The position numbers were made by a program, and so were the translations under genes. A DNA stretch of 64,000 nt from Terriglobus aquaticus (lineage in GTDB: Bacteria > Acidobacteriota > Terriglobia > Terriglobales > Acidobacteriaceae), in contig NZ_JAGSYB010000001.1 in assembly GCF_025685415.1 (NCBI RefSeq), positions 1,426,001-1,490,000 of the forward strand, read 5' to 3'. Below are positions 13,808-64,000 of this stretch, one piece after another. Within the stretch, counting starts at the first letter, position 1; each line of letters begins with the position of its first letter. The notes under the pieces were generated by a model. That model ran no database searches. It had not been told where the DNA came from and worked only from the letters and a program-made list of their open reading frames with translations.

Positions 13808-13813
13808 GACAAT
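13808..13813 (+). promoter_or_regulatory. -10-like box 6 nt before xylB
   Basis: GACAAT ends 6 nt before the ATG, with TTGGCA (13784-13789) 18 nt upstream of it. Transcription would start at or next to the ATG, giving a leaderless mRNA; no Shine-Dalgarno site is visible. Confidence 0.45.
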
Positions 13814-13819
13814 GCCGGT

Positions 13820-15337
13820 ATGACAACGGCATCCGCGTTTCTGGGCATTGACTGCGGCACACAAGGAACCAAGGCGCTGCTGCTGCAGCAGGATGGCAAG
13901 ACCCTGGGCCGCGGCTACGCCAAGCACGACATCATCGAGCGCGCCAATGGAGCGCGCGAGCAGGATCCGCGATGGTGGGTGGATGCGTTGAAAACGAGTG
14001 TGGCCGCTGCCATGGCCTCGCACCCGAACGCTGCTGTGCAGGGCATCGGCATCTCGGGTCAACAACACGGGCTGGTTGTGTTGGACGAAGCGAACGAGGT
14101 CATTCGTCCCGCCAAACTTTGGAACGACACGGAAACCGCGCCGCAGAATGAAAAGCTGCTGACCCACTTCGGTGGACCGGAAGCATGGATAGAGCGGTTC
14201 GGCATCGTCCCGCGAACGGGCTACACCGTAAGCAAGCTGCTTTGGCTGAAAGAGGTTGAGCCGCAGAACTTCGCGCGAGTGCGCCACATCCTCCTGCCGC
14301 ATGAGTACTTGAACCTCTGGTTGACCGGAAACCTTCGTGCGGAATACGGCGACGCCTCCGGAACCGGGTACTTCGACCCGCGCAGCCGCAAGTGGATTGC
14401 CGAGGTGCTGCAGTGGATTGACGGAGGAAGCGGTCAGTTGGTCTCAGCACTGCCGCAGCTGATCACGCCGGAAGACGCCGTCGGCAAGCTCCGCCCCGAG
14501 ATCGCGGACGAGCTTGGACTACCGCACGACTGCCTGGTTGCAAGCGGCGGTGGCGACAACATGATGGGAGCTCTGGGCACCGGCAACGTGAAACAGGGCG
14601 TGGTGACCATGAGCCTCGGAACATCGTCTACGGTGTACAGCTATCGCGACGCTCCCGCCGAGGATCGCAGCGGCAACGTTGCGCCCTTCTGCAGCAGCAG
14701 TGGCGGGTGGCTGCCGCTGGTCTGCACGATGAACGCGACCAACGTGGTCACACAAACAGTGGAACTGATCGGCAGCACTGTAGCCGCTCTGGAACCCGCA
14801 TTGCAGAACACACCGCCCGGCGCCGATGGCCTGGTGTGGCTTCCATTTCTGAATGGCGAGCGCACCCCCGACCTGCCCTCCGCACGCGGCACGCTGCTGG
14901 GCGTCTCAGCAAACAACTACACGCAACAGCACCTGATCCGCGCCATGGTGGAAGGCGTCAGCTTCGGCATCCTCGCAGGCTTGGAGCTGATCCTGCAAGG
15001 CGCCGCTGCGCAAACCGTACAACTGATCGGTGGCGGCGCGAAGTCGGCCGAATGGCGGCAACTGCTGGCGGATGCAACGGGCGCAACGATTCAGGTGCCT
15101 GCGGAGGAAGAAGCAGGCTGCCTCGGTGCCGCCATTCAGGCGATGTACGCGTGCGGCTGCGCCGCGGGAGACGGCGGTTCGTTTCAGGAGTTGGCCGACC
15201 GCTATGTGCGCGTGGATGATTCCAAGACGGCGAGGCCGAACCCTGCGAACCGTGATCTCTACCGTGCAGCCATGCGCGCTTACCAGGATGCACTTCACCA
15301 CCAGTATCCGGAGACGGCAGGCAGCAGCGCAACATAG
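13820..15337 (+). CDS. xylB: Xylulokinase
   Basis: 505 residues, FGGY carbohydrate kinase. It phosphorylates D-xylulose to xylulose 5-phosphate for the pentose phosphate pathway. Seen: the N-terminal phosphate loop LGIDCGTQGTKALLL, the xylulokinase-type GISGQQHGLVVLD near 75 and AKLWNDTET, and GGGAKSAEWRQLLAD in the C-terminal domain. No xylA or xylose regulator lies beside it. truB follows after a short gap and may be cotranscribed. A GH43 enzyme and sugar transporters elsewhere in the window fit growth on pentosans. Confidence 0.93.
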   Translation: MTTASAFLGIDCGTQGTKALLLQQDGKTLGRGYAKHDIIERANGAREQDPRWWVDALKTSVAAAMASHPNAAVQGIGISGQQHGLVVLDEANEVIRPAKLWNDTETAPQNEKLLTHFGGPEAWIERFGIVPRTGYTVSKLLWLKEVEPQNFARVRHILLPHEYLNLWLTGNLRAEYGDASGTGYFDPRSRKWIAEVLQWIDGGSGQLVSALPQLITPEDAVGKLRPEIADELGLPHDCLVASGGGDNMMGALGTGNVKQGVVTMSLGTSSTVYSYRDAPAEDRSGNVAPFCSSSGGWLPLVCTMNATNVVTQTVELIGSTVAALEPALQNTPPGADGLVWLPFLNGERTPDLPSARGTLLGVSANNYTQQHLIRAMVEGVSFGILAGLELILQGAAAQTVQLIGGGAKSAEWRQLLADATGATIQVPAEEEAGCLGAAIQAMYACGCAAGDGGSFQELADRYVRVDDSKTARPNPANRDLYRAAMRAYQDALHHQYPETAGSSAT

Positions 15338-15369
15338 CAGAGCCGCGCTCTGCTGTAATGGGAGAGTTC

Positions 15370-16260
15370 ATGCAAGCCGCTCCTATTCACGGTCTCCTGA
15401 TTCTCGATAAGCCCGCGGGCCTCACCTCGCACGACGTGGTTGCGCTGGCCCGGCGCGCCACGAACGAGCGCTCCATCGGACACCTGGGAACGCTCGATCC
15501 CATGGCCACCGGCGTGCTCCCGCTTCTGATCGGCAAGTGGACGCGGCTGGCTTCGTTCTTCTCCACCGCAGAGAAGCTCTATACCGGCACCATCCGCTTC
15601 GGCTTCAGCACCGATACTTTCGACGCCGAGGGCGAGCGCATGAGCGAGCCGGAGCCGCTGACGCGCTCACTGGAAGAGCTACGCGCCCTAGCAGAGAAGT
15701 TTCGTGGAGAGATCGATCAGATGCCGCCGGTATTTTCGGCGAAGAAGATCGATGGCGTTCCCGCATACAAGCTTGCGCGGCAGGGCAAGCCCGTCGCTTT
15801 GAAGACATCACGCATCACCATCCATAACTTCACGCTCGATGCTTTGGACGGCGACACGGCCGAGTTCAGCATCCATGTGTCGTCCGGGGGTTACGTGCGT
15901 TCGGTGGCGCATGAACTGGGTCAGCTAGCCGGGTGCGGTGCGCACTTGAGCAGCCTGCGCAGGGTGCAGGCCGGACCCTTCACGCTGCAGCAGGCATGTA
16001 CCCGCGACCAGTTGATCGACGCGGTGAACCACGGAAACGTGCGCGATCTCCTGCTTCACCCGAGGACAATCCTGCCGGAGTTCCCCGCCGTCGCAGCGGA
16101 CGAGTCGTCTCTGACCAAACTGCGCAACGGACAGGCAGCGAACCTGCCGGAGTATTCGCAAAGCAGGATGGTTAAGGTGTTTCGCGGTCAAACGGAGCTG
16201 GCAGCGATATGCAGGCGCGTGGCCGGAACCCTGTTCCAGCCGCACCTCAACCTCGTGTAA
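15370..16260 (+). CDS. truB: tRNA pseudouridine(55) synthase
   Basis: 296 residues. TruB converts U55 in the T loop of tRNA to pseudouridine. Seen: GLLILDKPAGLTSHDVV, the catalytic-Asp motif SIGHLGTLDPMATGVLPL near residue 40, and YTGTIRFGFSTDTFD. The C-terminal PUA-like portion is short. The ATG at 15370 is preferred over 15358 because GGGAG lies 6 nt before it. It lies 32 nt after xylB on the same strand and ends 9 nt before the convergent tesA gene. Confidence 0.95.
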   Translation: MQAAPIHGLLILDKPAGLTSHDVVALARRATNERSIGHLGTLDPMATGVLPLLIGKWTRLASFFSTAEKLYTGTIRFGFSTDTFDAEGERMSEPEPLTRSLEELRALAEKFRGEIDQMPPVFSAKKIDGVPAYKLARQGKPVALKTSRITIHNFTLDALDGDTAEFSIHVSSGGYVRSVAHELGQLAGCGAHLSSLRRVQAGPFTLQQACTRDQLIDAVNHGNVRDLLLHPRTILPEFPAVAADESSLTKLRNGQAANLPEYSQSRMVKVFRGQTELAAICRRVAGTLFQPHLNLV

Positions 16261-16269
16261 TCGACATAC

Positions 16270-17019
16270 CTATTTCTTCAGCATCGGCTGCAGAAAGCCG
16301 AAGATATTCTTCGCGACCTGCCGGCAGCCCTGAGCAGTGGGGTGCACCCCATCCTGCTGGATGCTTCCGCTCACGCCCCACACGCCCTGTAGCAGAAACG
16401 GGTAAAGCGGGACGGAATACTTGTCTGCGACCACGTGGTACGTGCGGTTGAACTCCTGAATGTAAGCCTGGCCGAACTGCGGCGGCAGCGTGATGCCGGC
16501 AAGCGCAACTTCGGTTCCGCTGGATTTCAGTCGCTGAACGATCGCGTCCAGGTTGGCTCGCGAACTTGCAACGGGCACTCCGCGCAGACCGTCGTTGCCG
16601 CCGAACTCCACCACCGCGATGGCCGGATGCAAGGCGAGTACGCGGTCGACGCGCGCCAGACCGTCCTTCGTGGTTTCCCCACTGATGCCCAAGTTGACCA
16701 CGCGGTAGTGATACCCGGCCTTGTCCAGCAGGCCTTGCAGGCGCGACGGATAGGAGTCGGCTGCGTCTACGCCGTAGCCGGCAGTCAGGCTGTCGCCAAA
16801 GCAGGCGATCACAGGGCGACCGTCATCGACGGCCTGTTGTTCCGTGGTGCTCATAGGCTTGGAATGTGCTCGCGCAATGGCCGCCTGGTAGTTAACGGCG
16901 CTGTTCTGGTTTTCGGATTGGCGTGTGGCCTGGCCGGGTTTGCATCCGTTCAGCCAAAGAGGGAGCAGGAAAAGCAGGGTAACCAACAACAGGAGCCGGG
17001 TTCGAGAGAGGTTAGGCAT
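16270..17019 (-). CDS. tesA: SGNH/GDSL esterase, TesA/TAP family lipoprotein
   Basis: 249 residues from the ATG at 17019. Residues 1-25 are a hydrophobic signal ending in the lipobox LNGC, so it is probably a lipoprotein. Block I CFGDSLTAGYG carries the nucleophile Ser, NLGISGETT is block II, VVEFGGNDGLRG block III, and QQDGVHPTAQG holds the catalytic Asp and His. The family includes E. coli TesA (thioesterase I, arylesterase, lysophospholipase). It is divergent from a ybbA-ybbP-like ABC pair, the same arrangement as in E. coli. CATGAT lies 7 nt before the ATG; no ribosome site is seen. Confidence 0.9.
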   Translation of the reverse strand: MPNLSRTRLLLLVTLLFLLPLWLNGCKPGQATRQSENQNSAVNYQAAIARAHSKPMSTTEQQAVDDGRPVIACFGDSLTAGYGVDAADSYPSRLQGLLDKAGYHYRVVNLGISGETTKDGLARVDRVLALHPAIAVVEFGGNDGLRGVPVASSRANLDAIVQRLKSSGTEVALAGITLPPQFGQAYIQEFNRTYHVVADKYSVPLYPFLLQGVWGVSGSIQQDGVHPTAQGCRQVAKNIFGFLQPMLKK

Positions 17020-17026
17020 AGCGTCA

Positions 17027-17032
17027 ATCATG
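17027..17032 (-). promoter_or_regulatory. -10-like box 7 nt before tesA
   Basis: CATGAT on the minus strand ends 7 nt before the ATG at 17019. It fits a leaderless transcript. Confidence 0.35.
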
Positions 17033-17045
17033 TGAGATGCAGTGC

Positions 17046-17051
17046 GATACT
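17046..17051 (+). promoter_or_regulatory. -10-like box 6 nt before ybbA
   Basis: GATACT ends 6 nt before the GTG at 17058. It supports that GTG as start and a leaderless transcript. Confidence 0.45.
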
Positions 17052-17057
17052 GAGCGC

Positions 17058-17795
17058 GTGAGTTCCACGCCAAGCATCCGCGTTTCCAACCTGATCAAGA
17101 CCATCCGCAACGGTTCCCGAACGGTCGAAATCCTTCGGGGCATCAGCTTTGACGTGACGGCCGGCGAGTTCGTCGCCATGGTCGGCGCGTCGGGCTCCGG
17201 CAAAAGCACGCTGCTCGGTCTGCTGGCCGGGCTCGACACACCCACCAGCGGCAACGTCAATCTGAACGGAACCGAGATCAGCTACCTGAAAGAGGACGAT
17301 CTTGCAGCCGTCCGGGGCCGTCTGATCGGCTTTGTCTTCCAGAGTTACCAGTTAATCCCCACGTTGACCGCGCTGGAAAACGTGTTGCTGCCCTACGAAC
17401 TGAACAGCAAGGGTCAGGAGCGCGAAGGCCTGGAACGTGCCCGGGGCCTGCTGGATGCAGTGGGTCTTGCGGATCGCGGAGATCATTATCCTGTTCAGCT
17501 CTCCGGCGGCGAACAGCAGCGGGTCGCCCTGGCACGCGCGTTTGTTCTGCGTCCGCCCATCGTGCTGGCCGACGAGCCTACCGGCAACCTGGACTCGCGC
17601 AACGGCGCGCAGGTGATGGACCTCCTGCTGAACCTGAACCGGAAGGAAGGAACCACGCTTGTGCTGGTCACGCACGACCCTGCCGTTGCTGCGCACGCGT
17701 CTCGCACGCTGACCATACGCGATGGCGCGTTGGTTTCCGATCAGCGCAATGACGCCTTCCCAGGGAGCACCAGCACTAATCCGAGGTTCGGCTGA
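17058..17795 (+). CDS. ybbA: ABC transporter ATP-binding protein, YbbA/LolD type
   Basis: 245 residues from GTG 17058; an ATG at 17037 is in frame but lacks support. Walker A is GASGSGKST, the Q loop is FVFQSYQLIPTLTALEN, the signature is LSGGEQQRVALARAF and Walker B is IVLADEPTGNLDS. This is the MacB/LolD class that works with FtsX-type permeases. The stop TGA overlaps the ATG of the permease by one base. In E. coli ybbA-ybbP is likewise divergent from tesA. The substrate is not established, but lipid or lipoprotein handling in the envelope is the usual suggestion. Confidence 0.93.
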   Translation: MSSTPSIRVSNLIKTIRNGSRTVEILRGISFDVTAGEFVAMVGASGSGKSTLLGLLAGLDTPTSGNVNLNGTEISYLKEDDLAAVRGRLIGFVFQSYQLIPTLTALENVLLPYELNSKGQEREGLERARGLLDAVGLADRGDHYPVQLSGGEQQRVALARAFVLRPPIVLADEPTGNLDSRNGAQVMDLLLNLNRKEGTTLVLVTHDPAVAAHASRTLTIRDGALVSDQRNDAFPGSTSTNPRFG

Positions 17796-20365
17796 TGGCA
17801 GCGCTTCCTTGGTCCACGGCGGCGCGCGTCGCCTGGCGAGAGTTGCGAGCCTCGCGCACCAAATTCCTCTTCGTGGTTCTCAGCGTCGCTGTTGGCGTGG
17901 CGGCGCTTACAGGCGTGCGCGGCTTTTCCGCATCGTTTCGACATACTCTGCTGATCCGCGCTCGGTCGATTTTGGCAGGCGATTTGGGCGCAAGGATGTT
18001 TCAGCAGCCCACACCAAAGCAACTTGCATTGCTGGACCATGCCGCAGCCGGGCTTCGCCGCACCACCGTCACAGAGATGGCGTCCATGGCCACCGCCGCG
18101 AACTCGATGGATCCATTGCTGGTCGCGCTCAAGGCCATCGACCCCCGCGAATATCCCTACTATGGCCGGGTCGATCTGCAGCCGTCCATGCCCTTGGAAC
18201 AGGCCGTCGGCAACGATTCGGTTGCGGTCGGTGAAGATCTGCTGATTCGCCTCCGCTTACATGTGGGCGACAGCATCACGCTCGGTGACCGCACCTTTCG
18301 CATTGCCGCCGTGGTCGAGAGCGAGCCGGATCGCTTGTCTGGTGCCTTTGCCGCAGGACCGCGGGTGCTCTCGAGCCAGCAGCAATTGGCGGAAACACAC
18401 CTGCTGGCCACCGGTTCGCGTGCGAGCGAGCGATTCCTCTTCAAACTTCCATCACCCGACGATCGTGTCGTGGCAAAGCTCAAGGCTGCGGTCGAGGAAG
18501 CCCTGCCGGAAGCGAACGTCTCCGACTATCGGGAGACCAATCCGGCGATCACTGTTGCGCTGGATCGCGCGACAGACATCCTCTCCCTCGTCTCTCTGGT
18601 GGCACTGGTGCTGGGCGCGCTGGGCGTGGCGATGGCCATGCGCACCCATCTGCTGGAGCGGCTTGACTCCATCGCCATCATGAAGTCGCTGGGTGCCCAG
18701 AGCAGCAGCGTAGTTCGCATTTATCTTCTGCAAACCATCTTCCTGGGGCTGCTGGGCGGGGTTGTCGGCGTGCTGCTGGGCGTTGCGGTGCAGGTTGCGC
18801 TGCCGCTGCTGCTTGGCCGCATGTTGGGACTCTCGCCAGAGCTGCACATCGCGGGCAGCGCAGTGCTTACCGGCATCCTTACGGGGCTGATCATCACGGT
18901 CCTGTTTACGCTGCCGCCACTGCTCGACATCCGCAACGTTCGTCCCATATCTATCTTGCGGCGCGCCGTGGATGCGGAGCCCGCTCCGGCACTGCAACAG
19001 CTGCGTCAACGCCTGCGTGCCAACCTTGTACAGGTGGGCGCTATGGTGCTGATTTTGGCCGGTCTGGCCACCATTGCCGGTGTGCTTTCCGAGTCTCGCA
19101 AGGCTGGCCTGATCTTTGTGGTCGCTCTGGTCGCGGTATTGCTGGCTCTCATCGCTGCGGCAGCTTTGCTGCTTTGGATCCTGCGGCGCACCTTACAGCG
19201 CACGCGATTTTCGCTACCGCCTGCAGTGCGCCACGGGCTGGCGAATCTGTATCGTCCCGGCAATCCCTCAGCCGCTCTGTTGGCTGCGCTTGGCTTGGGT
19301 GTGATGCAGGTTGCTATCGTCTTCTTTCTCGGCCAGGCCTTCACGCACGAGCTGAAGCTGTCCACGCGCACGGACCTACCCAACGTCTTTCTGGTCGACA
19401 TCGCCGATAACGAACTACTCGGTCTACAGAGTCTGCTGAAGCAGCAGCCGGAGGTTCGCGGCACGCCGGAATTTGTTCCCGTGCTGTCCTCGCGCATCCT
19501 GTCGGTGGACGGGGTTCCAGCCGCTCAATTGAAGCTGAAGAACTTCCCTCAGCGCATGCTGCAAAGCATTACGCTCACCTGGTCGGAGACGCTCCCCGAG
19601 GGCACGACGGTGCTGCAGGGTAAGTTCTGGCAGCCTGGCGAAACGCGGGCGCAACTCGCCATCGGCGAACGTCACGCGGAACGCCTTGGTGTAAAGCTGC
19701 ACTCGCACATCGTCTTCGCAGCCGGCAGCGACGCGGATCGACCGATCGATGCAGAGGTCTCAGCCATCGTTCGCTCCGACGGTCAGCACGCGTACTCGCG
19801 CGCCGAATTCATCCTGCCGCGCGCGCCGCTCGACGGCATTTCGGAGGTCTGGTACGGCGCGGTGCATTCCGACCCGAACCAGGTAGGCGAACTGCAACGG
19901 GCGTTGTACGCAAAGTATCCGACCGTCACCGTGATCAACGTGGCGCAGGCGTTTGAGCAGCTGCGGAAGATCCTTGTGCAGGTTCAGCTTGTGGTGCAGT
20001 TCCTTGCAGGTTTCTCCATCTTTGCCGGATTAGTCATTCTGGCATCAGCCGTGGCAGGCACGCGCTACCGCCGCGTGCGCGAGGTGGTTGTCCTGAAAAC
20101 GCTCGGCGCTACCCGTTTGCGCATCGGATCCATCTTCACGATCGAATTCGCCGTGCTCGGCCTGGTCGCCGGCCTTGTCGGCCTGCTCTTCGCCAATCTC
20201 AGCACGCGGGCGCTGCTGCGCCAAATGGACCTGGGCTACCACCTGAACGCGGCCGAGAACCTCGGCATGTGGATCCTTGTCGCGCTGCTCACCGTGGCGA
20301 CGGGATGGCTTGCAAGCTACCGCATTCTGGGCCAGAAACCACTGGAAGTATTGCGCGAAGAATAA
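17795..20365 (+). CDS. ybbP: FtsX-like ABC transporter permease, YbbP type
   Basis: 856 residues, two FtsX-type modules. A helix at about 20-45 is followed by a large MacB-like periplasmic domain. Then come membrane helices around 270-370 (LVSLVALVLGALGVAMAM), a second helix set near 415-460, a second periplasmic domain, and terminal FtsX helices (FAGLVILASAVAGTRYRRV ... GWLASYRILGQKPLEVLREE). Size and layout match YbbP. It is coupled to the ATPase gene by a TGATG overlap. Its stop is only 2 nt from the convergent glycosyltransferase stop. Confidence 0.92.
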   Translation: MAALPWSTAARVAWRELRASRTKFLFVVLSVAVGVAALTGVRGFSASFRHTLLIRARSILAGDLGARMFQQPTPKQLALLDHAAAGLRRTTVTEMASMATAANSMDPLLVALKAIDPREYPYYGRVDLQPSMPLEQAVGNDSVAVGEDLLIRLRLHVGDSITLGDRTFRIAAVVESEPDRLSGAFAAGPRVLSSQQQLAETHLLATGSRASERFLFKLPSPDDRVVAKLKAAVEEALPEANVSDYRETNPAITVALDRATDILSLVSLVALVLGALGVAMAMRTHLLERLDSIAIMKSLGAQSSSVVRIYLLQTIFLGLLGGVVGVLLGVAVQVALPLLLGRMLGLSPELHIAGSAVLTGILTGLIITVLFTLPPLLDIRNVRPISILRRAVDAEPAPALQQLRQRLRANLVQVGAMVLILAGLATIAGVLSESRKAGLIFVVALVAVLLALIAAAALLLWILRRTLQRTRFSLPPAVRHGLANLYRPGNPSAALLAALGLGVMQVAIVFFLGQAFTHELKLSTRTDLPNVFLVDIADNELLGLQSLLKQQPEVRGTPEFVPVLSSRILSVDGVPAAQLKLKNFPQRMLQSITLTWSETLPEGTTVLQGKFWQPGETRAQLAIGERHAERLGVKLHSHIVFAAGSDADRPIDAEVSAIVRSDGQHAYSRAEFILPRAPLDGISEVWYGAVHSDPNQVGELQRALYAKYPTVTVINVAQAFEQLRKILVQVQLVVQFLAGFSIFAGLVILASAVAGTRYRRVREVVVLKTLGATRLRIGSIFTIEFAVLGLVAGLVGLLFANLSTRALLRQMDLGYHLNAAENLGMWILVALLTVATGWLASYRILGQKPLEVLREE

Positions 20366-20367
20366 CC

Positions 20368-21540
20368 CTACTGCGGGTACTCTCTTCCCTTCCACGAAAC
20401 CTGCTTGGCGAGACCGACCTGCTGCCAGGACCGTACCAGCAACAGCGCGAGTAGGGGCAGAGCAAACACGGCCAGCGCGATGTCGATCGCATTTGCTCCT
20501 GACCGGCGTGTCCGTGTCCAGTAGCGCAGAATCACTCGCAGCCAAAGGACCCAGAACGCTGCTCGTTGCCACAGCAGCCACGGCAGCGACAGGCTGAGCA
20601 CCGGCAGGCCTACCAAAAGAACGAAGTCCAGTATTCGTGCCGCGGCCAGCCATACCGGCCGCGGAAACAAGAGGGCCAGGTTCTTCGTCCAGCCTGCCAT
20701 CATCTCGCCTGTGGTGCGATACATGCGCGCCGCCACGCTTTCTGGCGCATACCGCAGGCGAATGCCGTGGCGGCGCTTCAGCAAACGCGCCAGGGCCACA
20801 TCCTCCAACACGCGATCCGCAACGGCCTGATGGCCGCCTACGCTGAAGTAAGCCGCCCTCTGCACCAGCAGGAACTGCCCGTTTGCCGCGGCGATCGGAC
20901 TTCCAGGATCGTTGACGAGCTTTGGTGGATACGCCGTCGCTAGTTCTGAGAACACCAGAGGCAAAAGGGCGCGCTGCACTACGTTGGCCGCGATCTGCCG
21001 CGGCGAGTAGCTCAGCATCGCCACGCCGTGCCGTTCCGCTTCGATCACGGCCCGATGCGTCGTTCCAGGCTCATGCAGCGTGTCGGCATCGGTGAACAGC
21101 AGCCACTTCGCCGTCCGCGCCACAGGCTGATTTACTCCAAACCACAGGGCGGCATTCTTGCCGGTGAACCCGTGCCGTCTCGCCTGCAGTTGCGGAGCGC
21201 GCAAGACGTGCACTCCTTCGTGCTTGCCTGCGACATCCTGCGCAATGCGTAGGGTGTCGTCCGACGATTCGTCGTCGATCACAAAGATGTGCCAGTGCCG
21301 GCCCAACTGAAACCCGTCGCCTGACTGTCCGATCAGCGATGCCAAGCACCCTGGCAGATTATGCGCCTCGTTGCGAGCCGGGATCAGTACGGACAACTCG
21401 TGGGTGTCAGCCTCGTCCTGCTCCAACTCCACATAGGACCGCGACCGCAGCGAGGATGCCGGGTGCGTGGGCGCACTTCCATCCAGCCGCAAAGTAAACT
21501 CCGGCTCCTGTGATGCTGTTTGCTGTTCCGGGTCGACCAT
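20368..21540 (-). CDS. Membrane-anchored GT2 glycosyltransferase (HpnB/CrtQ-like)
   Basis: 390 residues. After about 48 polar residues the GT-A fold begins with LSVLIPARNEAHNLPG, then IFVIDDESSDDT and the metal-binding LLFTDADTLHEPGTT. FTGKNAALWFGV, the acceptor-site VLEDVALARLLKRRHG and two to three C-terminal membrane helices resemble hopanoid-associated (HpnB) and carotenoid (CrtQ) glycosyltransferases. No hopanoid or carotenoid gene is in the window, so the substrate stays open. A GTG near 21435, close to the fold boundary, is an alternative start. The TATGAT 8 nt before ATG 21540 favours the long form. Confidence 0.82.
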   Translation of the reverse strand: MVDPEQQTASQEPEFTLRLDGSAPTHPASSLRSRSYVELEQDEADTHELSVLIPARNEAHNLPGCLASLIGQSGDGFQLGRHWHIFVIDDESSDDTLRIAQDVAGKHEGVHVLRAPQLQARRHGFTGKNAALWFGVNQPVARTAKWLLFTDADTLHEPGTTHRAVIEAERHGVAMLSYSPRQIAANVVQRALLPLVFSELATAYPPKLVNDPGSPIAAANGQFLLVQRAAYFSVGGHQAVADRVLEDVALARLLKRRHGIRLRYAPESVAARMYRTTGEMMAGWTKNLALLFPRPVWLAAARILDFVLLVGLPVLSLSLPWLLWQRAAFWVLWLRVILRYWTRTRRSGANAIDIALAVFALPLLALLLVRSWQQVGLAKQVSWKGREYPQ

Positions 21541-21547
21541 CGCTTCG

Positions 21548-21554
21548 TATCATA
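21548..21554. promoter_or_regulatory. Shared symmetric -10 box between divergent GT2 and TlpA-like genes
   Basis: TATCATA reads as TATCAT on the plus strand, 7 nt before GTG 21561, and as TATGAT on the minus strand, 8 nt before ATG 21540. The two start codons are only 20 nt apart. One core could drive both genes as leaderless transcripts. Confidence 0.5.
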
Positions 21555-21560
21555 GGACCT

Positions 21561-22067
21561 GTGCTGCCCTCCTTCCGCTTCGTCCGCCGTTTCGCCGCGC
21601 TCGTGCTGCCATGTGCCCTGCTGGTTGCCAGCGGCTGCAACCGGGGCGACCACCCGCAACAGGTCTCGCAGCAAGCGCCGGATTTTGTGGTTCGCGACGG
21701 TGCGCGCACGGTCCGCCTGCAGGATTATCGGGGCAAGACGGTCGTCCTGAACTTCTGGGCCACATGGTGTGCGCCCTGCCTGGACGAGTTGCCGAGCCTG
21801 CAACAGATGCAGCAGCAGGTGCCGCAGGTGCAAGTGCTGGCGGTGTCCATCGATGACGACCCCGTGGCCTACGCCGATTTCCTGAAGCAATACAAGCTGA
21901 AGCTGTTCAGTGTGCGAGATGGATCCGAAGGCGCGAACCTCCGCTTCGGATCGATCCGCGTTCCAGAAACGTTTGTGATCGACCGCAACGGTGTCATTCG
22001 CCGGAAATTCGTCGGTCCGCAGGACTGGACGTCGCCCGAAATCGAGAGCTTCCTGACGAAGCTGTAG
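21561..22067 (+). CDS. TlpA-like thiol-disulfide oxidoreductase, probable lipoprotein
   Basis: 168 residues from GTG 21561; an ATG at 21510 would overlap the divergent gene. The N-terminus RFVRRFAALVLPCALLVASG then Cys is a lipoprotein signal with lipobox VASGC. The thioredoxin fold has QAPDFVVRDGARTVRLQDY, the redox site NFWATWCAPCLDELPSL (CXXC) and the cis-Pro loop SIRVPETFVIDRNG. Members reduce or relay electrons to periplasmic thiols, for example in cytochrome c maturation. It ends 2 nt from the convergent dehydrogenase gene. Confidence 0.9.
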   Translation: MLPSFRFVRRFAALVLPCALLVASGCNRGDHPQQVSQQAPDFVVRDGARTVRLQDYRGKTVVLNFWATWCAPCLDELPSLQQMQQQVPQVQVLAVSIDDDPVAYADFLKQYKLKLFSVRDGSEGANLRFGSIRVPETFVIDRNGVIRRKFVGPQDWTSPEIESFLTKL

Positions 22068-22068
22068 A

Positions 22069-25170: not shown

Positions 25171-25177
25171 CAGCACG

Positions 25178-25183
25178 AGCATA
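25178..25183 (-). promoter_or_regulatory. -10-like box 7 nt before the FAD/Fe-S dehydrogenase gene
   Basis: TATGCT on the minus strand ends 7 nt before ATG 25170. It marks that ATG rather than 25182 as the likely start of a leaderless mRNA. Confidence 0.45.
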
Positions 25184-26097: not shown

Positions 26098-26103
26098 AAT
26101 GTA
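26098..26103 (-). promoter_or_regulatory. -10-like box 7 nt before the isomerase-like gene
   Basis: TACATT on the minus strand ends 7 nt before ATG 26090. It fits an internal leaderless promoter between the GH43 and isomerase-like genes. Confidence 0.4.
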
Positions 26104-28983: not shown

Positions 28984-30606
28984 CTATCGGAAACGCTCGT
29001 CGGCGCCGCTTTCGCTTCGGACGCAATGAGTCATCGCGTAAGTCTGTGACAGGACGCTTGCGTCTCGGCTGCAGGTGTAACCGCGTGCCTGCAACGCGGC
29101 GGGAACCCACGTGTCTCCTGACATCACGGGCGCTACCAGGTACACGTCATGGCCGGGCTTGTAGTCGCGATACTCCGTTAGCGCAAACGGCAGCACGCCA
29201 GCCACCACAAAGCGCTGCAGCACCACCTCAGGGATGCCGTCCGGGATAGTGCGATAGCCATCCGCATCCGTGATCATGCGCAGCCGTTTCCGTTCCTCGG
29301 GTCGCGCGTACCACCAGAGCGTGGGAAACGCCAGAGGACTGGCAATCACCTCATCGTGCGTGAAGATCGCCGCGTTTGCTTCCGTTGGAGAGACGCGAGG
29401 ATCTTCCTTCAGAAAACGACGGAGCGCAGAAAGAGGAAGCACGATCAGAAGAACCGCAATCCCAAACTGTACCGCGGGCAGCCTGCGCCACGCCGCTGCG
29501 GCGAGCCCCACCCCAAGAAGCAATGGTGCGCACAGATAGGTTGGCGAAGCATAACGCGGAAAGAAATAGTGGTTTGCCGCGCCGGCTGCAAAGGCGAGCA
29601 CGGCAGCAGCATACAGCGCCAGCGCTGCGAGCAGCGGGAACTCCAGGTCGCGTCCTGCCTCGTTCTCTGCCCACTGCTGCCCCGCTGAACGCCGTTTCAT
29701 CAGCAGGCTCAGACCAGCCACAACCGCCAGCAAGATCGCCTGCCACCGCCGCTCCACGGGGATGGCCAGCACCTCCAGCAGCTTGGCCAAGGTTGGCAGG
29801 CCCGGCGTTCTTGCCGACATGGGAACCAAGCTCATGTAGCGCGCTTGAATCTGGTGGGCGAGTATGAAGTCAAAGCCGAAGGCTGTTGCCGAAAGCGCAA
29901 CCGCTAGCAAGAGGCGCTTGTCCGCGCGTCTCGTCCGGTACCAGTACAGAAGTTCGCCCGCAACGATCGGAACGAGCGTGTATAGCAGGCTGAGCGCGTG
30001 GATCGTCGCGGCAAACACAATCGTGAGCGCAAGCGGCCACAAACTTGTTCGGATTCCCGCCGCTCGCCGGTTGCGATACGTGTCGTAGAACAGCAGGCTG
30101 GCGGCCGACACCGCCATCAACGCGGCGTAGGGCCGAATGGTGAACATGAACTCCACGCCGCGCGACGCCGTCAGAAGCGCCGCGCTACAGAGTCCGGCAA
30201 GCGGTGCACCGCGACGCTCGAACAAGAGAAAGAGGCAAAGCACGGCCATCATCATGGCCAGAGCGGACACCGCGTGAACTCCAACTGCCTGAGGCAACGG
30301 CAGCAGCAATCCCAAGCGTGCGGCCACATGGCTGAAGGGTGGCTGGCTATCGGCGGGCACGGCGGCCAGATAGGCGTGCCACGACGGTGCTTCAGCCGTC
30401 AGCACTGTGCTGATCTGGTCGAACTCCATGGCCCGCGGCTGAACCAGGATCGTAAAGCGCGCGCCAAGAAACACCAGCAGCACCGCCAGGCCAACCCAGG
30501 CGCCACGGCGTTGCCACACTGGCGCGCCGGAGGACGGCGCTTTAGAACGTGCTACGTCGGTTGTTGAAGCAAAGAAGTGGCCTTGGCCCGGCAGCGCAGA
30601 CATCAT
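28984..30606 (-). CDS. GT-C type polytopic membrane glycosyltransferase
   Basis: 540 residues with about ten membrane helices and a soluble C-terminal domain of about 120 residues. The first loop has QPRAMEFDQISTVLTAE, an acidic site where GT-C/PMT-like enzymes place their catalytic Asp or Glu, followed by DSQPPFSHVAARL. This resembles ArnT/PMT and RgtA-D-like proteins that move a sugar from a polyprenyl-phosphate donor to lipid or protein. Substrate unknown. TATGCT lies 8 nt before the first of two adjacent ATGs. Same strand as, and 100 nt upstream of, the TonB-like gene. Confidence 0.75.
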   Translation of the reverse strand: MMSALPGQGHFFASTTDVARSKAPSSGAPVWQRRGAWVGLAVLLVFLGARFTILVQPRAMEFDQISTVLTAEAPSWHAYLAAVPADSQPPFSHVAARLGLLLPLPQAVGVHAVSALAMMMAVLCLFLLFERRGAPLAGLCSAALLTASRGVEFMFTIRPYAALMAVSAASLLFYDTYRNRRAAGIRTSLWPLALTIVFAATIHALSLLYTLVPIVAGELLYWYRTRRADKRLLLAVALSATAFGFDFILAHQIQARYMSLVPMSARTPGLPTLAKLLEVLAIPVERRWQAILLAVVAGLSLLMKRRSAGQQWAENEAGRDLEFPLLAALALYAAAVLAFAAGAANHYFFPRYASPTYLCAPLLLGVGLAAAAWRRLPAVQFGIAVLLIVLPLSALRRFLKEDPRVSPTEANAAIFTHDEVIASPLAFPTLWWYARPEERKRLRMITDADGYRTIPDGIPEVVLQRFVVAGVLPFALTEYRDYKPGHDVYLVAPVMSGDTWVPAALQARGYTCSRDASVLSQTYAMTHCVRSESGADERFR

Positions 30607-30614
30607 CTCGTCTC

Positions 30615-30620
30615 AGCATA
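30615..30620 (-). promoter_or_regulatory. -10-like box 8 nt before the GT-C gene
   Basis: TATGCT on the minus strand ends 8 nt before ATG 30606. No Shine-Dalgarno site is seen. Confidence 0.4.
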
Positions 30621-31949: not shown

Positions 31950-31955
31950 AGACTA
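31950..31955 (-). promoter_or_regulatory. -10-like box 7 nt before the spinster-like MFS gene
   Basis: TAGTCT on the minus strand ends 7 nt before ATG 31942. It fits a leaderless transcript. Confidence 0.4.
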
Positions 31956-33036: not shown

Positions 33037-33042
33037 AGTTTA
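33037..33042 (-). promoter_or_regulatory. -10-like box 6 nt before queF
   Basis: TAAACT on the minus strand ends 6 nt before ATG 33030. It fits a leaderless transcript. Confidence 0.45.
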
Positions 33043-38607: not shown

Positions 38608-38736
38608 ACTCACCCTCCTGCTTCAGGCTACCCGCAACCTTGAATAGCCCAGCATCACAGACGGCACGTGGCAGCAGCGCGCAAGGCCAGCGCAACTCCT
38701 TCAAGCAAAGCGAGACGGTCTACTCTAAGCGAAGCC

Positions 38737-50660: not shown

Positions 50661-50666
50661 TACACT
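50661..50666 (+). promoter_or_regulatory. -10-like box 6 nt before murA
   Basis: TACACT ends 6 nt before ATG 50673, with no Shine-Dalgarno site. It fits a leaderless transcript. Confidence 0.5.
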
Positions 50667-54686: not shown

Positions 54687-54690
54687 CTCA

Positions 54691-55659: not shown

Positions 55660-55671
55660 CTTCTGTCGCGC

Positions 55672-55998
55672 TTAGTGCTTATCCGTTACCGCGTCCTTAG
55701 TCTTGTCATAGGCCTTCTCGGTTCCATGGGCTGTCGCCTTGGCAGCCTTTTCTGTCCCGTGTTTGGTCGCGTCCCAGCCTTCTTTGGTCTTTTCTTCGGT
55801 CACGTTTGCGGCCTTCTTGGTTCCGCGCTTTGACTTGCGATACGTGGTCTTGGTGCCCTTCTTCACGGCGCGGCCGGTGTCCTTGGTCGCGGCAGCCGTT
55901 TCGTGGCCGGCGTTCTTGGCGTCCTGATTGGCCGTCTGGGCAACGACGGGGGCCGCGATCAGGGTGGCGGCCAGCATGCATGCAGCAAACTTGTTCAT
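55672..55998 (-). CDS. Exported Lys/Thr/Ala-rich, LEA-like repeat protein
   Basis: 108 residues from ATG 55998, set by GAGGAG 6 nt upstream. Signal peptide 1-20. The mature part is a highly charged, low-complexity helix with loose 11-residue units: DTGRAVKKGTK, KSKRGTKKAAN, TKEGWDATKHG, TEKAAKATAHG, TEKAYDKTKD. This resembles group 3 LEA or apolipoprotein-like amphipathic repeats; such proteins are linked to desiccation and membrane protection, but function here is inference. Single gene. Confidence 0.75.
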   Translation of the reverse strand: MNKFAACMLAATLIAAPVVAQTANQDAKNAGHETAAATKDTGRAVKKGTKTTYRKSKRGTKKAANVTEEKTKEGWDATKHGTEKAAKATAHGTEKAYDKTKDAVTDKH

Positions 55999-56108
55999 AC
56001 GTTCTCCTCGCACACGGTGCGCAAAACTTCTACCGGTGTAGATGACTGAACCCGGGTCTTCGTTGGTCGTTGCGCATAATCACTCCCGCAATCCATACAC
56101 CGCGCGGC

Positions 56109-56138
56109 GCTTCCATCCTCTGAATCCGGTCCTGTATA
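56109..56138 (+). promoter_or_regulatory. Candidate sigma-70 promoter of the FucP-like gene
   Basis: TTCCAT (56109-56114), 18-nt spacer, TATAGT (56133-56138). Leader of about 65 nt. This is the only strong element in the 213-nt gap 55999-56211, the longest without a gene in the window. Confidence 0.4.
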
Positions 56139-56211
56139 GTCCCCACATCCGGCCATCTACGTGTCGGAACACCGCAACAGATCGCCGCTCGGGCGAAACG
56201 GATCGAGGAAT

Positions 56212-57522: not shown

Positions 57523-57563
57523 CTGGACCTGCCCCGTATTTGCAATGCTTGATGACAGCAACC

Positions 57564-57599
57564 TGCGCCCGGAACGCACTCCTTTGCGTTCCGGGCGCA
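57564..57599 (+). terminator. Strong hairpin terminator after the FucP-like gene
   Basis: Fourteen-bp GC stem (57564-57577 with 57586-57599) with an 8-nt loop, then TCGTTC. Confidence 0.75.
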
Positions 57600-57621
57600 T
57601 CGTTCATTCACACGGCTGCGC

Positions 57622-57627
57622 TACCCT
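57622..57627 (+). promoter_or_regulatory. -10-like box 8 nt before ppk1
   Basis: TACCCT ends 8 nt before ATG 57636. No Shine-Dalgarno site in the gap. Confidence 0.35.
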
Positions 57628-57635
57628 AAGCCTGC

Positions 57636-59873: not shown

Positions 59874-59891
59874 CGTACCTGGCAAAAGGAC

Positions 59892-59914
59892 GGGGCCAGC
59901 AATCCGCTGGCCCC
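59892..59914. terminator. Hairpin between convergent ppk1 and Ig-repeat genes
   Basis: Nine-bp GC stem (59892-59900 with 59906-59914), AATCC loop, then TCCTCT. Confidence 0.75.
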
Positions 59915-59953
59915 TCCTCTCCGATCCGTTCGTTCCCGTAGCAACGTGCGTAC

Positions 59954-62900
59954 CTACTGCACCGTGACCGGCAAGGTGTACGTGTGCCGCAGCGTCCCAT
60001 CACTCGATGTCGCTGTGATGGTCAGCAACTGCGTCCCCAGCGGCGTTCCAGAACTTCCAGTGCCTCCACCGCCTCCACTAGTACCGCCCGAGGATGTACC
60101 GCCGCCATTCAGGTTGTTGGTGGAATCCACCATGCCCAGACCGCAACCATTCGTCAGGACTACGGAGAAGCACAGCATCAACAGGACCGCTCCAATCCGC
60201 CGTGTGCGACGGAACGGCACCAGCAACAGGGCCGCGAGAGTCGCGCCAGCGCCGCCCAACATCCCGTCGGAATAGCTTGGCGCGCCGCTCGCGCTCTGCA
60301 CCGCGGTAGTCACCGTCAGCCCAACTGAACCGCCCGCCATCACCGTGGACGGCTGAAACGCGCAGGTAATCTGGCTGCCACCGGGCGGCGTACAGGTCAG
60401 CACGACCGACGAGTTGAACCCGCTTGTGACGGACAGGCTGGCGGTACCGCTGACTGTGCCGCCCCGCGGGACCGTCAGGCTCCCCGGATTCAACGACACA
60501 CTAAAGTCGCCGAAGTTGACGGACGCTGACGCAGAAGTCGACGGGAGAAAGATCCCGTCGCCGCTGTAGACCGCTGAAAAGCTGTGCGGCCCCGCAATCG
60601 ACCCATACACGTTGGTCGCGGCGGTGGACTGGTTCGTGCCCGTCGCGCTCAGCGTGGCGGTGCCTAACGTGATCTGGCTTCCGCCGCGCACGTCGTAGAA
60701 GGTGACCGTCCCGCTTGGAATACCAATCAGGCTGGCATCGCCTCCGGTCAGCGTGGCGGTCAACTGAATCGTCTGCCCTGCATTGGCATAGATCATGCTC
60801 GGCTGCAGACTGATCGCAGACGCCACCCTCGCTGGTGAAACCACCACCGCAGAAGACCTGCTGCCGTAGCAAGTGGTGTCGCCGCCATACACCGCGGTCA
60901 ACGAGTCGCTGCCCACCGGCAGCTTGCCCGCTACGCTCACCGTTCCGCCACTCAGCGTTCCGTTCGCGACAAACACGTTGTTCGACAGAAACGTCACCTG
61001 TCCCGTGCAGTTCACGCTTGGCGCTACGGACGCCACCGCCGCGGGAAAGCTAGGGGCTACGATCGCAGTGAACGTCGTACTCTGGCCCGCCAGCGGCTGC
61101 GCGGGCAACAGCGTGAGCGTCGTCGTGGAGGCCACCTTGCCCAGCGCCACAGCCAATGTTGTGGCGGTTGACGTGCTTCCCGAATAGTTAGAATCGCCGC
61201 TATACACCGCAGTAATCGAGTGCGTTCCCACCTGCAGCGCCGCCAGGTTCAAGGTCACGAACCCGTTGCCCAGCGTCGCCGTTCCAACCACACCCTGCAG
61301 ACTCGACCGGAAGGTAATCGTTCCTGTTGGAGCTCCGGTCGCATACGAAGCTGGCGTGACCGTAGCCGTGAACGATGCACTCGATCCGAAGTTGAGCGTG
61401 GTTGGACTGATCGACAGCGCGGTGCTCGTCGTCACCAGAGGCGCGCTCACGACCACGGCAGCAGAGTTCGCAGGACTATAGCTGGTGTCGCCGCTATACG
61501 CCGCGACCAAGCTGTTGGTGGCCCCGCTCAGCGATGCCGTATACGTGCCTGCACCGTTGTTCAGCGTCACGCTGGCAATCTGCACGCCATTGTTCTGAAT
61601 GGCTACCGTTCCCGTGGGAACCGTCGTGCTTCCACTGGGTGCCGCGACCGAGATCGCCAGGTCGTACTTCTGCGTAGCCGAGTTCGCCACGGTAGCTTCC
61701 GGTGTGCTGGTCAGCGTCACCGTCGGGGTCGCCGTCGTCACCATAGCGGCAAAACTGGTCGGCTGGTTGCAGGCAAAGCTGCCGTTGCTCGTGCAATTGG
61801 CCTGCAGTGTGAGCTTGCCCAGCGTGGTTGCCGGCACGTTGACGACTGTGCTCGCGCTGCTGCTGGTGCTGCTGGACAGAGTCGCCGTGTAAGTAGTCGG
61901 CGTGGCGGAGGTGAATGCGGTCACCGTAACAGGTCCGCTTGGAACTCCCACGCCGCTTGATGATTTTGCCGTTACCGTCACGGGAATGGTCCCGCCCAGC
62001 TTTGTGTTGGGAGCGGTCGCCGTCAGAACCACATCTTCCGGTGTAACGGTGCTCGTAACGATGTTGCTGGTCCCTGGCGCAAACGTAGCGTCACCGCTAT
62101 AGGTCCCAGACAGGTCATAGACATCGCCCGGCAGCGTAGTAGTGCTGAAGGAGGCAACGCCTTTCGAATCCAGAGAGCTGGGCCCGAGCGTGGCCGTACC
62201 GCCAGACCGGCCCTTGAGCGTCGCCGTAACCGTGCCGGTCGGCGTTCCACCGGTGCCTGTAACGGTATACGTCAGCCCCAACGCCTGCCCGTGCGTGACC
62301 GTCGTGTTTGACACAGCAAGAGCGACATTCACGCCTGTTGCGCCGGTTGCCAGCGCTCTCACCAGGGCCGCCACGTTCACGGCTCCCAGGCCGTCGGTCG
62401 CCGTCCATGTCCCCTCCGGCGCGTTCGGGTCTTCGTGCGTGAAGATGCCGTGACCCACGGCCAGCCGATACAGTTGCGGCGCCAGCGGACCCACTCGCCC
62501 GTGCTGCACGGCAAACGTCTGCAACGCCTGCAAAAGCCCTGCAACATCCGGCAACACCCCATCCGGCAGAGCGCGATTTCCATCGGCAGGCAATCCTGCA
62601 GCCGCCTGCCACTCGGGTCGGCTCGTCGCATCCTGAGAGGTCTGCACAAGCCCAGCCGCATTCGACAACATCGCCACGCTGGCGGTGTCGCTGCCGGCGC
62701 CGCCACTGGTCGTCTGCAGGACGGTGATGCCCTCCGCTGCCGCTTCGGCGAGCAGTTCCTGCCACTCCTGGGCAGCACTCGCGTCCACGGGTGGCACGGT
62801 CACAGCTGCCGCTGCATTCGACTCAACCGCATCCGCCAACACGGAAACGGCGTCGCCGGCGATCACCACTTGCGCTCCCGGGATACGGTCCAACTTCGGA

Positions 62901-63364
62901 CGCGAATCCGCAGCAAACGACACCGTCGCCGCCCCCACGGCCGCTCGGGGCGCCAAGTCCACTCGGAATGCCCGACGCACCTGTGCCGCGGTCCCGCGGA
63001 ACGCGATACGCATTCCGTTCGTCGCCGTGCCGTCCACCTGGAATCCCTGCTGCCGAAGCCAATCAGCGGCAGCCTGCCGGGTGGTCGCGTCCGGCGCAAA
63101 CCGGTTTGCGAACTCTTCGGGCGTAATCCAGCGGCGATACTCTGCCGCCCCCGGCGTCTGCTGCGCCTTCAGCAGCGCCTCAAGGGAGGCCTGCTGCTCG
63201 TCCGTACGCTTCAACGTCAGCCGCAGACCACTTACCGGCAGCGAATCGGGGACCGCGCCCTGGGCGTGCACCGTGGTCGGGAACAGCATTGCAAGCGCGG
63301 CGAACACACACGCCCACACGGCGAAAAGGACCCTGCGGGGAACACGGTCGGCAAGTGGCGGCAT
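59954..63364 (-). CDS. Secreted Ig-repeat protein with kumamolisin-type pro-domain and degenerate S53 region
   Basis: 1136 residues from ATG 63364; signal peptide about 1-35. Residues 45-140 match the S53 (Pro-kumamolisin) activation domain: RWITPEEFANRFAP, WLRQQGFQVDG, AAQVRRAFRV. A shortened S53-like remnant follows (about 200-340, GITVLQTTSGGAGS). The stretch aligned with the catalytic SGTS loop reads LPDGVLPDVAGLL, and no catalytic Glu/Asp segment is seen, so it is probably not a peptidase. About six Ig-like repeats (345-930, each with YSGD or YGGD), a further beta domain, a helix with RRTRR, a Cys in TNGCGLG and a last beta module follow. Surface binding or adhesion is inferred. Confidence 0.85.
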   Translation of the reverse strand: MPPLADRVPRRVLFAVWACVFAALAMLFPTTVHAQGAVPDSLPVSGLRLTLKRTDEQQASLEALLKAQQTPGAAEYRRWITPEEFANRFAPDATTRQAAADWLRQQGFQVDGTATNGMRIAFRGTAAQVRRAFRVDLAPRAAVGAATVSFAADSRPKLDRIPGAQVVIAGDAVSVLADAVESNAAAAVTVPPVDASAAQEWQELLAEAAAEGITVLQTTSGGAGSDTASVAMLSNAAGLVQTSQDATSRPEWQAAAGLPADGNRALPDGVLPDVAGLLQALQTFAVQHGRVGPLAPQLYRLAVGHGIFTHEDPNAPEGTWTATDGLGAVNVAALVRALATGATGVNVALAVSNTTVTHGQALGLTYTVTGTGGTPTGTVTATLKGRSGGTATLGPSSLDSKGVASFSTTTLPGDVYDLSGTYSGDATFAPGTSNIVTSTVTPEDVVLTATAPNTKLGGTIPVTVTAKSSSGVGVPSGPVTVTAFTSATPTTYTATLSSSTSSSASTVVNVPATTLGKLTLQANCTSNGSFACNQPTSFAAMVTTATPTVTLTSTPEATVANSATQKYDLAISVAAPSGSTTVPTGTVAIQNNGVQIASVTLNNGAGTYTASLSGATNSLVAAYSGDTSYSPANSAAVVVSAPLVTTSTALSISPTTLNFGSSASFTATVTPASYATGAPTGTITFRSSLQGVVGTATLGNGFVTLNLAALQVGTHSITAVYSGDSNYSGSTSTATTLAVALGKVASTTTLTLLPAQPLAGQSTTFTAIVAPSFPAAVASVAPSVNCTGQVTFLSNNVFVANGTLSGGTVSVAGKLPVGSDSLTAVYGGDTTCYGSRSSAVVVSPARVASAISLQPSMIYANAGQTIQLTATLTGGDASLIGIPSGTVTFYDVRGGSQITLGTATLSATGTNQSTAATNVYGSIAGPHSFSAVYSGDGIFLPSTSASASVNFGDFSVSLNPGSLTVPRGGTVSGTASLSVTSGFNSSVVLTCTPPGGSQITCAFQPSTVMAGGSVGLTVTTAVQSASGAPSYSDGMLGGAGATLAALLLVPFRRTRRIGAVLLMLCFSVVLTNGCGLGMVDSTNNLNGGGTSSGGTSGGGGGTGSSGTPLGTQLLTITATSSDGTLRHTYTLPVTVQ

Positions 63365-63464
63365 AGATGGAATCAGTGTGGAGGAGCTGCCGCAGGGCGG
63401 CAATAGTCCCGATGGGGGACACGAAACGGGGTTCGGCACCGCAGCCTCGAGGCTTCCCAGCGGC

Positions 63465-63470
63465 TACTCT
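63465..63470 (+). promoter_or_regulatory. -10-like box 6 nt before glmU
   Basis: TACTCT ends 6 nt before ATG 63477. It fits a leaderless transcript; no ribosome site is visible. Confidence 0.5.
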
Positions 63471-63476
63471 AGGTGC

Positions 63477-64000
63477 ATGGAAGCGCTCGGAATCGTCATC
63501 ATGGCCGCCGGCAAAGGCACTCGCCTCAAAAGCAGCCGTCCCAAGGTCCTACACGCCGTCGGCGGCAAGCTGCTGCTGCAACACGTGATCGATGCTGCGC
63601 TCCAGATCGTGCCGGCATCTGCGATACAGATTGTGATCGGACACCAGGCCGAGATGGTGCGGCAGGCCGTGCAGCACACCGGCGTTCGCTTCGTCCTGCA
63701 GGCGGAGCAGCTCGGTACGGGCCACGCCCTCCAGTGCGTCAAGCAGTCCTACCTCGCGGATCGAGTCGCCCCGCCCGAGAACCTCATCGTCCTCTCCGGT
63801 GACGTACCCCTGATTCGGCCCGAGACCATCGACCGGCTCTGGCAGACCCACACCCGCGAGTCCGCCGCCATGACGATCCTGACCGCCGTGCCCGACAACC
63901 CTCACGGCTACGGCCGAGTGCTGCGCACTGCCCCGGGCTCGGCTGAGGTTCGCGCCATTGTGGAACAGAAATCGCTGACTCCCGAGCAGCTCGCCCAGCC
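63477..64000 (+). CDS. glmU: Bifunctional GlcNAc-1-phosphate uridyltransferase/GlcN-1-phosphate acetyltransferase, 3' end cut by window
   Basis: 174 codons visible. The N-terminal uridyltransferase domain has GIVIMAAGKGTRLKSSRPKVLH, the GXGTRM-like nucleotide loop with its Lys; AEQLGTGHALQ and VLSGDVPLIRPETI hold UTP and metal contacts; and NPHGYGRVLR follows. It makes UDP-GlcNAc, the substrate of MurA encoded at 50673. The acetyltransferase left-handed helix would lie beyond the edge, so bifunctionality is inferred from the family. Divergent from the Ig-repeat gene. Confidence 0.93.
   Translation, partial: MEALGIVIMAAGKGTRLKSSRPKVLHAVGGKLLLQHVIDAALQIVPASAIQIVIGHQAEMVRQAVQHTGVRFVLQAEQLGTGHALQCVKQSYLADRVAPPENLIVLSGDVPLIRPETIDRLWQTHTRESAAMTILTAVPDNPHGYGRVLRTAPGSAEVRAIVEQKSLTPEQLAQ

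Follow-up and report, generated by a model that had tools for sequence, protein, structure and literature searches.

Acidobacteriota are abundant soil bacteria. Passages of Zheng et al. 2011 (PMC3160421) report TA-led leaderless genes in three of three Acidobacteria genomes (9.7%–19.4% of genes leaderless), with a TANNNT hexamer ~12 bp upstream of the start, weak middle positions of the motif in high-GC genomes, and genes led by a Shine-Dalgarno (SD) site alongside. The leaderless trait is therefore already known for the phylum, and the genome of Terriglobus aquaticus considered here (4.16 Mb, 2 contigs) is another member. We analyzed a 64,000-nucleotide stretch of this genome (positions 1,426,001–1,490,000 of contig 1, hereafter the window), in which an earlier sequence-only reading had listed thirteen genes with a −10-like hexamer ending 6–8 nt before the start codon. 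All thirteen hexamers were found at the genes and spacings claimed. Two of them overlap between a pair of divergent genes, an arrangement with its own precedents. Excerpts of Middlemiss 2023 (PMC10268837) and Warman 2026 (PMC12825309) describe symmetric −10 bidirectional promoters, with overlapping −10 elements, reciprocal −11A/−7T, and starts mostly 18 bp apart; polymerase competition at such sites is reported in these excerpts only with one direction strongly activated. The portion of PMC5057107 on the csoR-cueA divergon of Bradyrhizobium liaoningense likewise describes overlapping −10 elements, with one leaderless gene, mapped by rapid amplification of cDNA ends.

To assess the hexamer against chance, genes were called using a codon model, and starts were chosen by coding score and a start-codon prior, blind to upstream motifs. 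The first sample comprised the window and 800 kb taken as stretches spaced evenly along the same genome, from which 606 of 630 genes were kept (those open at, or starting <110 nt from, a stretch end were dropped). Of these 606 genes, 65 had a TANNNT ending 6–8 nt ahead of the start, an 8.6-fold excess over the 7.6 ± 2.6 (maximum 15) obtained when the 40 nt immediately upstream were dinucleotide-shuffled 200 times. Counts were highest at a spacing of 6 nt (34 genes), followed by 7 nt (20) and 8 nt (11), over a background of 2.9 per position. A held-out sample, consisting of a further 400 kb of the genome called with the earlier model, replicated the signal (17 of 269 genes versus 3.6 ± 1.8, maximum 10, 200 shuffles), and decoy ATGs within genes carried the box in 21 of 3,716 cases in frame and 14 of 2,853 out of frame. 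The check proposed with the sequence-only reading, an upstream motif search against shuffled controls split by presence of an SD site, thus found the hexamer to be far commoner than in shuffled sequence.

An expectation-maximization (EM) model with three classes (SD, TA, and none) and start choice included assigned 52%, 23%, and 24% of 623 genes to these classes, respectively. From a flat start, it converged on the same TA motif (T.79, A.87, C/T, A/C, C/A, T.98), with TA-class spacing weights of.35 at 6 nt,.23 at 7 nt, 0.07 at 9 nt,.13 at 10 nt, and 0.02 at 11 nt; from a deliberately wrong start, it drifted to a version of the motif shifted by one base. Class fractions from free EM alone are not evidence, while fixed-motif shuffles are. 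Free EM also populated its second class on shuffled sequence (28%, diffuse motif), and it did so in Escherichia coli as well. With the motif fixed, three shuffles gave a TA class of 1.4%–1.8%, and the held-out sample gave 13.5% versus 2.6% when shuffled. Because the fraction was 23% in training and 13.5% in held-out sequence, the true share of TA-led genes is, in our judgment, probably 10%–20%, which agrees with the 9.7%–19.4% given for three genomes in the passages of Zheng et al. 2011.

Several properties of these genes are consistent with a promoter placed directly at the start codon. SD 4-mers (GGAG, GAGG, or AGGA, 3–14 nt upstream of the start) occurred in 3 of 65 TANNNT genes versus 196 of 532 others (P = 7e-9). 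Among the thirteen window genes, for which near-absence of SD sites had been claimed, twelve carry no SD 4-mer, the exception being tlpA (AGGA). At spacings of 6–7 nt, 43 of 54 genes had a pyrimidine at −1, compared with 115 of 201 SD 4-mer genes (P = 0.003) and 197 of 343 genes with neither signal (P = 0.002), and none had A there (0/54 versus 32/201 SD 4-mer genes). Such a bias is expected if the purine of the start codon is +1. The same type of −10 element was enriched further upstream of SD-led genes: between −100 and −15 of 64 selected SD-led divergent genes, TA..CT occurred 18 times (versus 6.5 ± 2.2) and TA..AT 12 times (versus 4.7 ± 2.3). Hence, it is the distance to the codon that differs. 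No −35 element was seen in TA-led genes, and TTGAC/TTGACA was not enriched upstream of the SD-led divergent genes.

Genomic context points in the same direction, within limits. TA-led genes had a divergent neighbor more often (48/105 versus 65/257, P = 0.0003), rarely had a same-strand gene ≤30 nt upstream (7/105 versus 59/257, P = 0.0001), and never overlapped a same-strand neighbor (0/105 versus 31/257). Tightly packed operon-internal positions are thus avoided, as had been suggested. Same-strand gaps of 31–100 nt were not avoided (28/105 versus 50/257, P = 0.16), and the idea that TA-led genes are generally confined to the heads of transcription units did not hold up (head position taken as a divergent neighbor or a gap of >100 nt: 70/105 versus 148/257, P = 0.12). 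The idea that exported proteins keep SD sites also failed: an N-terminal hydrophobic segment was predicted for 29 of 125 TA-led and 91 of 372 SD-led genes (P = 0.81), and a shorter 20-aa test likewise showed no bias (12/105 versus 31/257).

The same pipeline was applied to other organisms (50 shuffles each). In 200 kb of E. coli, there was no enrichment (6/156 versus 6.6 shuffled; fixed-motif TA class 7.8% versus 8.4% shuffled), whereas 150 kb of the Deinococcus plasmid MP1 was enriched (11/109 versus 1.4), although free EM on the 109 MP1 genes did not recover TANNNT, unlike the regular-expression count. Enrichment was also found in named Acidobacteriaceae loci around ppk1 (106/756 versus 19.8; these are common neighborhoods and not independent) and in five genus members near murA (23/259 versus 6.1). 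Loci from Verrucomicrobia and others showed a weak excess (11/211 versus 3.5, maximum 8).

Conservation was assessed in 20 related genomes (12 others from the genus and 8 from the order), yielding 122 orthologue loci for 12 of the 13 genes (orthologues were excluded at <45% identity, where the alignment started past residue 45, or with <70 nt upstream). Named contigs were among those used for ppk1 and glmU, and one FAD/Fe-S dehydrogenase locus belongs to another family. TANNNT occurred 6–8 nt before an RTG start (ATG or GTG) at 51 of 122 loci, whereas nine alternative spacing bands gave 2–14 each; the loci are, however, kin by descent, partly redundant, and some from one genome, so that this is not an independent count. 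Conservation at the same distance was strong for murA, glmU, the major facilitator superfamily (MFS) gene, and tlpA. For example, the murA box lies at 6–7 nt in 8 of 11 orthologues although the flanks differ; one genus member (G011) and T. roseus DSM 18391 (L004) share an identical 45-nt stretch upstream of murA. The named sequences that best match the Ppk1 of this genome come from Terriglobus and other Acidobacteriaceae. For tesA, a box lies 6–8 nt before some RTG at 8 of 10 loci (two from one genome), with control spacings reaching up to 4/10. Among queF orthologues (L163–L180), three members of the genus have TA boxes, as do several genomes from another family, and others have GA-rich, SD-like sequences, which suggests that the predicted mode of initiation (leaderless or SD-led) switches between lineages within the order.

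The two overlapping boxes belong to a gene for a membrane GT2 glycosyltransferase (ATG 21540, minus strand) and a TlpA-like gene (GTG 21561, plus strand), separated by a 20-nt gap (window positions 21541–21560). TATCAT on the plus strand and TATGAT on the minus strand overlap by 5 of 6 nt within TATCATA. The core TATNATA, with reciprocal −11A/−7T, is present at 11 of 11 genus loci including this one (another, G009/L255, was dropped as its match lies at a contig end, and G012 has no close orthologue). The plus-strand start lies 7–8 nt from the box in 9 of these 11 loci and 14–15 nt in two; the minus-strand start lies 7–10 nt away in 9 of 11 and 17 nt in one, and none was found in one. In 11 of 14 loci, the opposite strand carries a GT2 relative. 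Moreover, the pattern CAY-N5-9-TATNATA-N5-9-RTG has a single site in the whole genome, in this gap, while a reversed control had 0 sites. Symmetric bidirectional promoters have a T at −18 on each strand, with purine starts 18 bp apart. Here, discriminators of 6 nt left and right of the core would place the transcript starts 18 bp apart, at bases that are not purines; starts on the codons would be 21 bp apart. Based on this sequence arrangement and its conservation, the gap probably holds a single promoter that works in both directions. Its symmetric −10 would serve both strands, giving two mRNAs, leaderless or nearly so, from 20 nt. As to how it would work, we lean towards the 7-bp TATNATA as the shared core of two promoters that start the GT2 and TlpA-like mRNAs with leaders of 0 to ~4 nt, so that the gap is cut to ~20 nt, with possible competition for one RNA polymerase site and with the core kept across the genus. 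A pair with both arms leaderless was not found in the open literature searched.

Divergent genes may be able to lie closer together when their starts are leaderless than when they are SD-led. Binned by gap length, the 133 divergent pairs in the T. aquaticus sequence had TA-led genes on both sides in 3/3 cases at ≤50 nt, 0/3 at 51–70 nt, 3/14 at 71–100 nt, 1/36 at 101–200 nt, and 1/49 at 201–400 nt; these counts are partly circular, as the TA model contributed to the choice of starts. The three compact pairs all come from the first sample; the 41 held-out pairs include none with a gap of ≤60 nt, and 25 pairs in E. coli none with ≤70 nt. The tesA/ybbA pair (38 nt by the starts of the sequence-only reading) was left out, as the caller picked a later tesA start. 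Elsewhere, both sides were TA-led at gaps of ≤50 nt in 1 of 3 pairs in family loci, 1 of 2 in MP1, and 0 of 4 in other loci, the last four looking like one conserved pair. Individual divergent pairs with TA-led genes on both sides lie at L122:5972–6008 and L084:7108–7155 in the same genome (gaps of 35 and 46 nt), and a pair on the Deinococcus plasmid MP1 (L243:23963–23994) has TA-like boxes on both strands of a 30-nt gap.

We regard leaderless or near-leaderless transcription as the best explanation for the class, with high confidence, and the SD rarity and the avoidance of tight operon-internal positions make this reading of the sequences well supported. In a sizeable minority of genes, the start codon is preceded at 6–8 nt by a housekeeping-type −10 element (consensus ~TAnaCT). 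RNA polymerase would then start on that codon or ≤~2 nt from it, and the resulting mRNA would have no or almost no leader. The ribosome would then begin on a 5′-terminal AUG or GUG without an SD site. Several observations weigh against applying this throughout. Three of the 13 window boxes, GACAAT (xylB), CATGAT (tesA), and GATACT (ybbA), depart from strict TANNNT at the first base. The box is not kept at 6–8 nt in orthologues of xylB (0/11), ybbA (1/10), and ppk1 (1/7), and just 2 of 12 FAD/Fe-S dehydrogenase orthologues have it there. With no −35 element seen, promoter strength cannot be judged, and the higher TA fraction in training (23%) than in held-out sequence (13.5%) may mean that the first was partly fitted. 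The symmetric core was present at 0 of 2 loci outside the genus (another family). In addition, the secondary spacing class at 9–11 nt suggests leaders of 3–4 nt for some genes, and GT2 orthologues have the box at 6–8 nt in 0 of 9 cases and at 9–11 nt in 5 of 9. These last two observations also suit a rather unlikely explanation that overlaps with ours, in which the hexamers are real promoters and many transcripts carry very short leaders (2–10 nt), free of SD sites but not strictly leaderless; two genus members further have start codons 14–17 nt from the tlpA/GT2 box. However, the main peak at 6–7 nt puts +1 on the start codon, and it is there that the −1 base favors pyrimidines and is never A.

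Chance matches in AT-richer upstream DNA, combined with freedom in the choice of start codons, would account for imperfect boxes, for the several starts fitted to the motif, and for the modest motif-blind count in the window (6 strict TANNNT cases in 48 genes). Given the excess over shuffles, the held-out replication, the flat result in E. coli, and the orthologue spacing band, chance is refuted for the class and extremely improbable as a general account, although individual boxes, for instance that of xylB, may still be explained in this way. It is also very unlikely that the hexamers are promoters at wrongly annotated starts, with translation from a downstream in-frame codon that has its own leader. 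The starts are indeed predicted, and coding-only calls favor later ones for tesA, the isomerase-like gene, the GT-C gene, and the MFS gene, but the distance from box to aligned start is constant in murA, glmU, MFS, and tlpA orthologues, and ATGs inside genes lack such a box. For the divergent pair, the symmetric core could instead be the operator of a dimeric regulator. It is dyad-symmetric, flanks (CTTC...GAAG) extend the symmetry in some relatives, and the mapped csoR-cueA case, as described in the portion of PMC5057107 cited above, has an operator over overlapping −10 elements. Against this, the flanking arms vary (the right arm here is GGACC) while TATNATA is the same at all 11 genus loci, in 9 of these loci both halves have a start codon at a distance of 7–10 nt, and the arrangement was found once in the whole genome; we thus consider an operator alone rather improbable, and a shared −10 element remains our preferred reading of this core.

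The boxes and the two divergent genes are listed in Table 1. Ten of the 13 boxes are strict TANNNT, and some of the starts had been chosen to fit the motif. The suggestion that twelve of the genes can head their transcription unit is possible but loose, as 7 of 13 have a divergent neighbor, 2 follow a same-strand neighbor at a gap of >100 nt (136 and 113 nt), and 4 do so at 45–91 nt. Three starts were said to be settled by the boxes: GTG 21561 is upheld by 8 of 10 orthologues, ATG 25170 has some support (an aligned ATG with a box 6–9 nt upstream in 4 orthologues), and GTG 17058 fares poorly (1/10). Pfam identities agree with the gene names given earlier, with limits for murA (assigned only to the EPSP-synthase family), 'glmU' (only the NTP-transferase part is visible, as the window end cuts the gene), and GT-C. 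The gene called GT-C (window positions 28984–30606) encodes 540 aa, with no Pfam match and no orthologue at E ≤ 1e-30 in the 20 relatives. A Rfam scan of the window gave 0 matches. One further box, absent from the original list, precedes a gene of the Gly_transporter family that probably has a very short leader.

Table 1. Hexamers and genes in the window (positions count from its first base; orthologue counts refer to TANNNT 6–8 nt before the start unless another spacing is given)
Feature	Position	Strand	Remarks
GACAAT, xylB (FGGY kinase)	13808..13813	+	6 nt before ATG 13820; weakest case; 0/11 orthologues
CATGAT, tesA (GDSL hydrolase)	17027..17032	-	7 nt before ATG 17019
GATACT, ybbA (ABC ATPase)	17046..17051	+	6 nt before GTG 17058; box in 1/10 orthologues
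Membrane GT2 glycosyltransferase gene, left arm of divergent pair	20368..21540	-	Pfam; orthologue box 0/9 at 6–8 nt, 5/9 at 9–11 nt
Symmetric −10, TATCATA	21548..21554	both	TATCAT (+) 7 nt before GTG 21561; TATGAT (-) 8 nt before ATG 21540
TlpA-like redoxin gene, GTG start, right arm of divergent pair	21561..22067	+	Pfam; start backed by 8/10 orthologues
TATGCT, FAD/4Fe-4S dehydrogenase	25178..25183	-	7 nt before ATG 25170; 2/12 orthologues, 2 more at 9 nt
TACATT, xylose-isomerase-like TIM barrel	26098..26103	-	7 nt before ATG 26090; 5/13 orthologue loci
TATGCT, 'GT-C' gene without Pfam match	30615..30620	-	8 nt before ATG 30606
TAGTCT, spinster-like MFS	31950..31955	-	7 nt before ATG 31942; 8/10 orthologues
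TAAACT, queF	33037..33042	-	6 nt before ATG 33030; 3/11 genus orthologues, plus several genomes of another family
TACTCT, Gly_transporter family (Pfam)	38721..38726	+	10 nt before ATG 38737
TACACT, murA-like	50661..50666	+	6 nt before ATG 50673; 8/11 orthologues, diverged flanks
TACCCT, ppk1	57622..57627	+	8 nt before ATG 57636; 1/7 orthologues
TACTCT, 'glmU' NTP transferase	63465..63470	+	6 nt before ATG 63477; 7/8 orthologue loci

As far as the literature searched shows, leaderless genes in Acidobacteriota rest on sequence inference, and no transcript map for the phylum was among the matches listed in our search. One outcome of this work is a tested set of start codons that might be overlooked by annotation based on SD sites. 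The general signal is of a known kind, and it is the probable two-way leaderless pair that is worth an experiment. Should two leaderless genes indeed share a symmetric −10, the way in which two polymerases use a single site could be studied in a small natural example, as could leaderless GUG initiation outside Actinobacteria. Compared with the genes in the passages of Zheng et al. 2011, those described here have the same anatomy, to which we add held-out and decoy controls, the −1 base, orthologue spacing, and operon context. They also match the anatomy of leaderless genes in Actinobacteria and Deinococcus-Thermus, as far as the sources consulted describe it, in a different phylum, and the same pipeline finds the signal on MP1. 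Overlapping −10 elements with reciprocal −11A/−7T are common to the GT2/tlpA pair and the symmetric bidirectional promoters in the excerpts of PMC10268837 and PMC12825309. Unlike the promoters in those excerpts, however, both arms of this pair appear to be protein-coding, with predicted leaders of 0–4 nt and an intergenic region of 20 nt. The pair likewise differs from csoR-cueA as covered in the portion of PMC5057107, where only the csoR arm is leaderless, the cueA leader is 42 nt, and a CsoR operator lies over the site.

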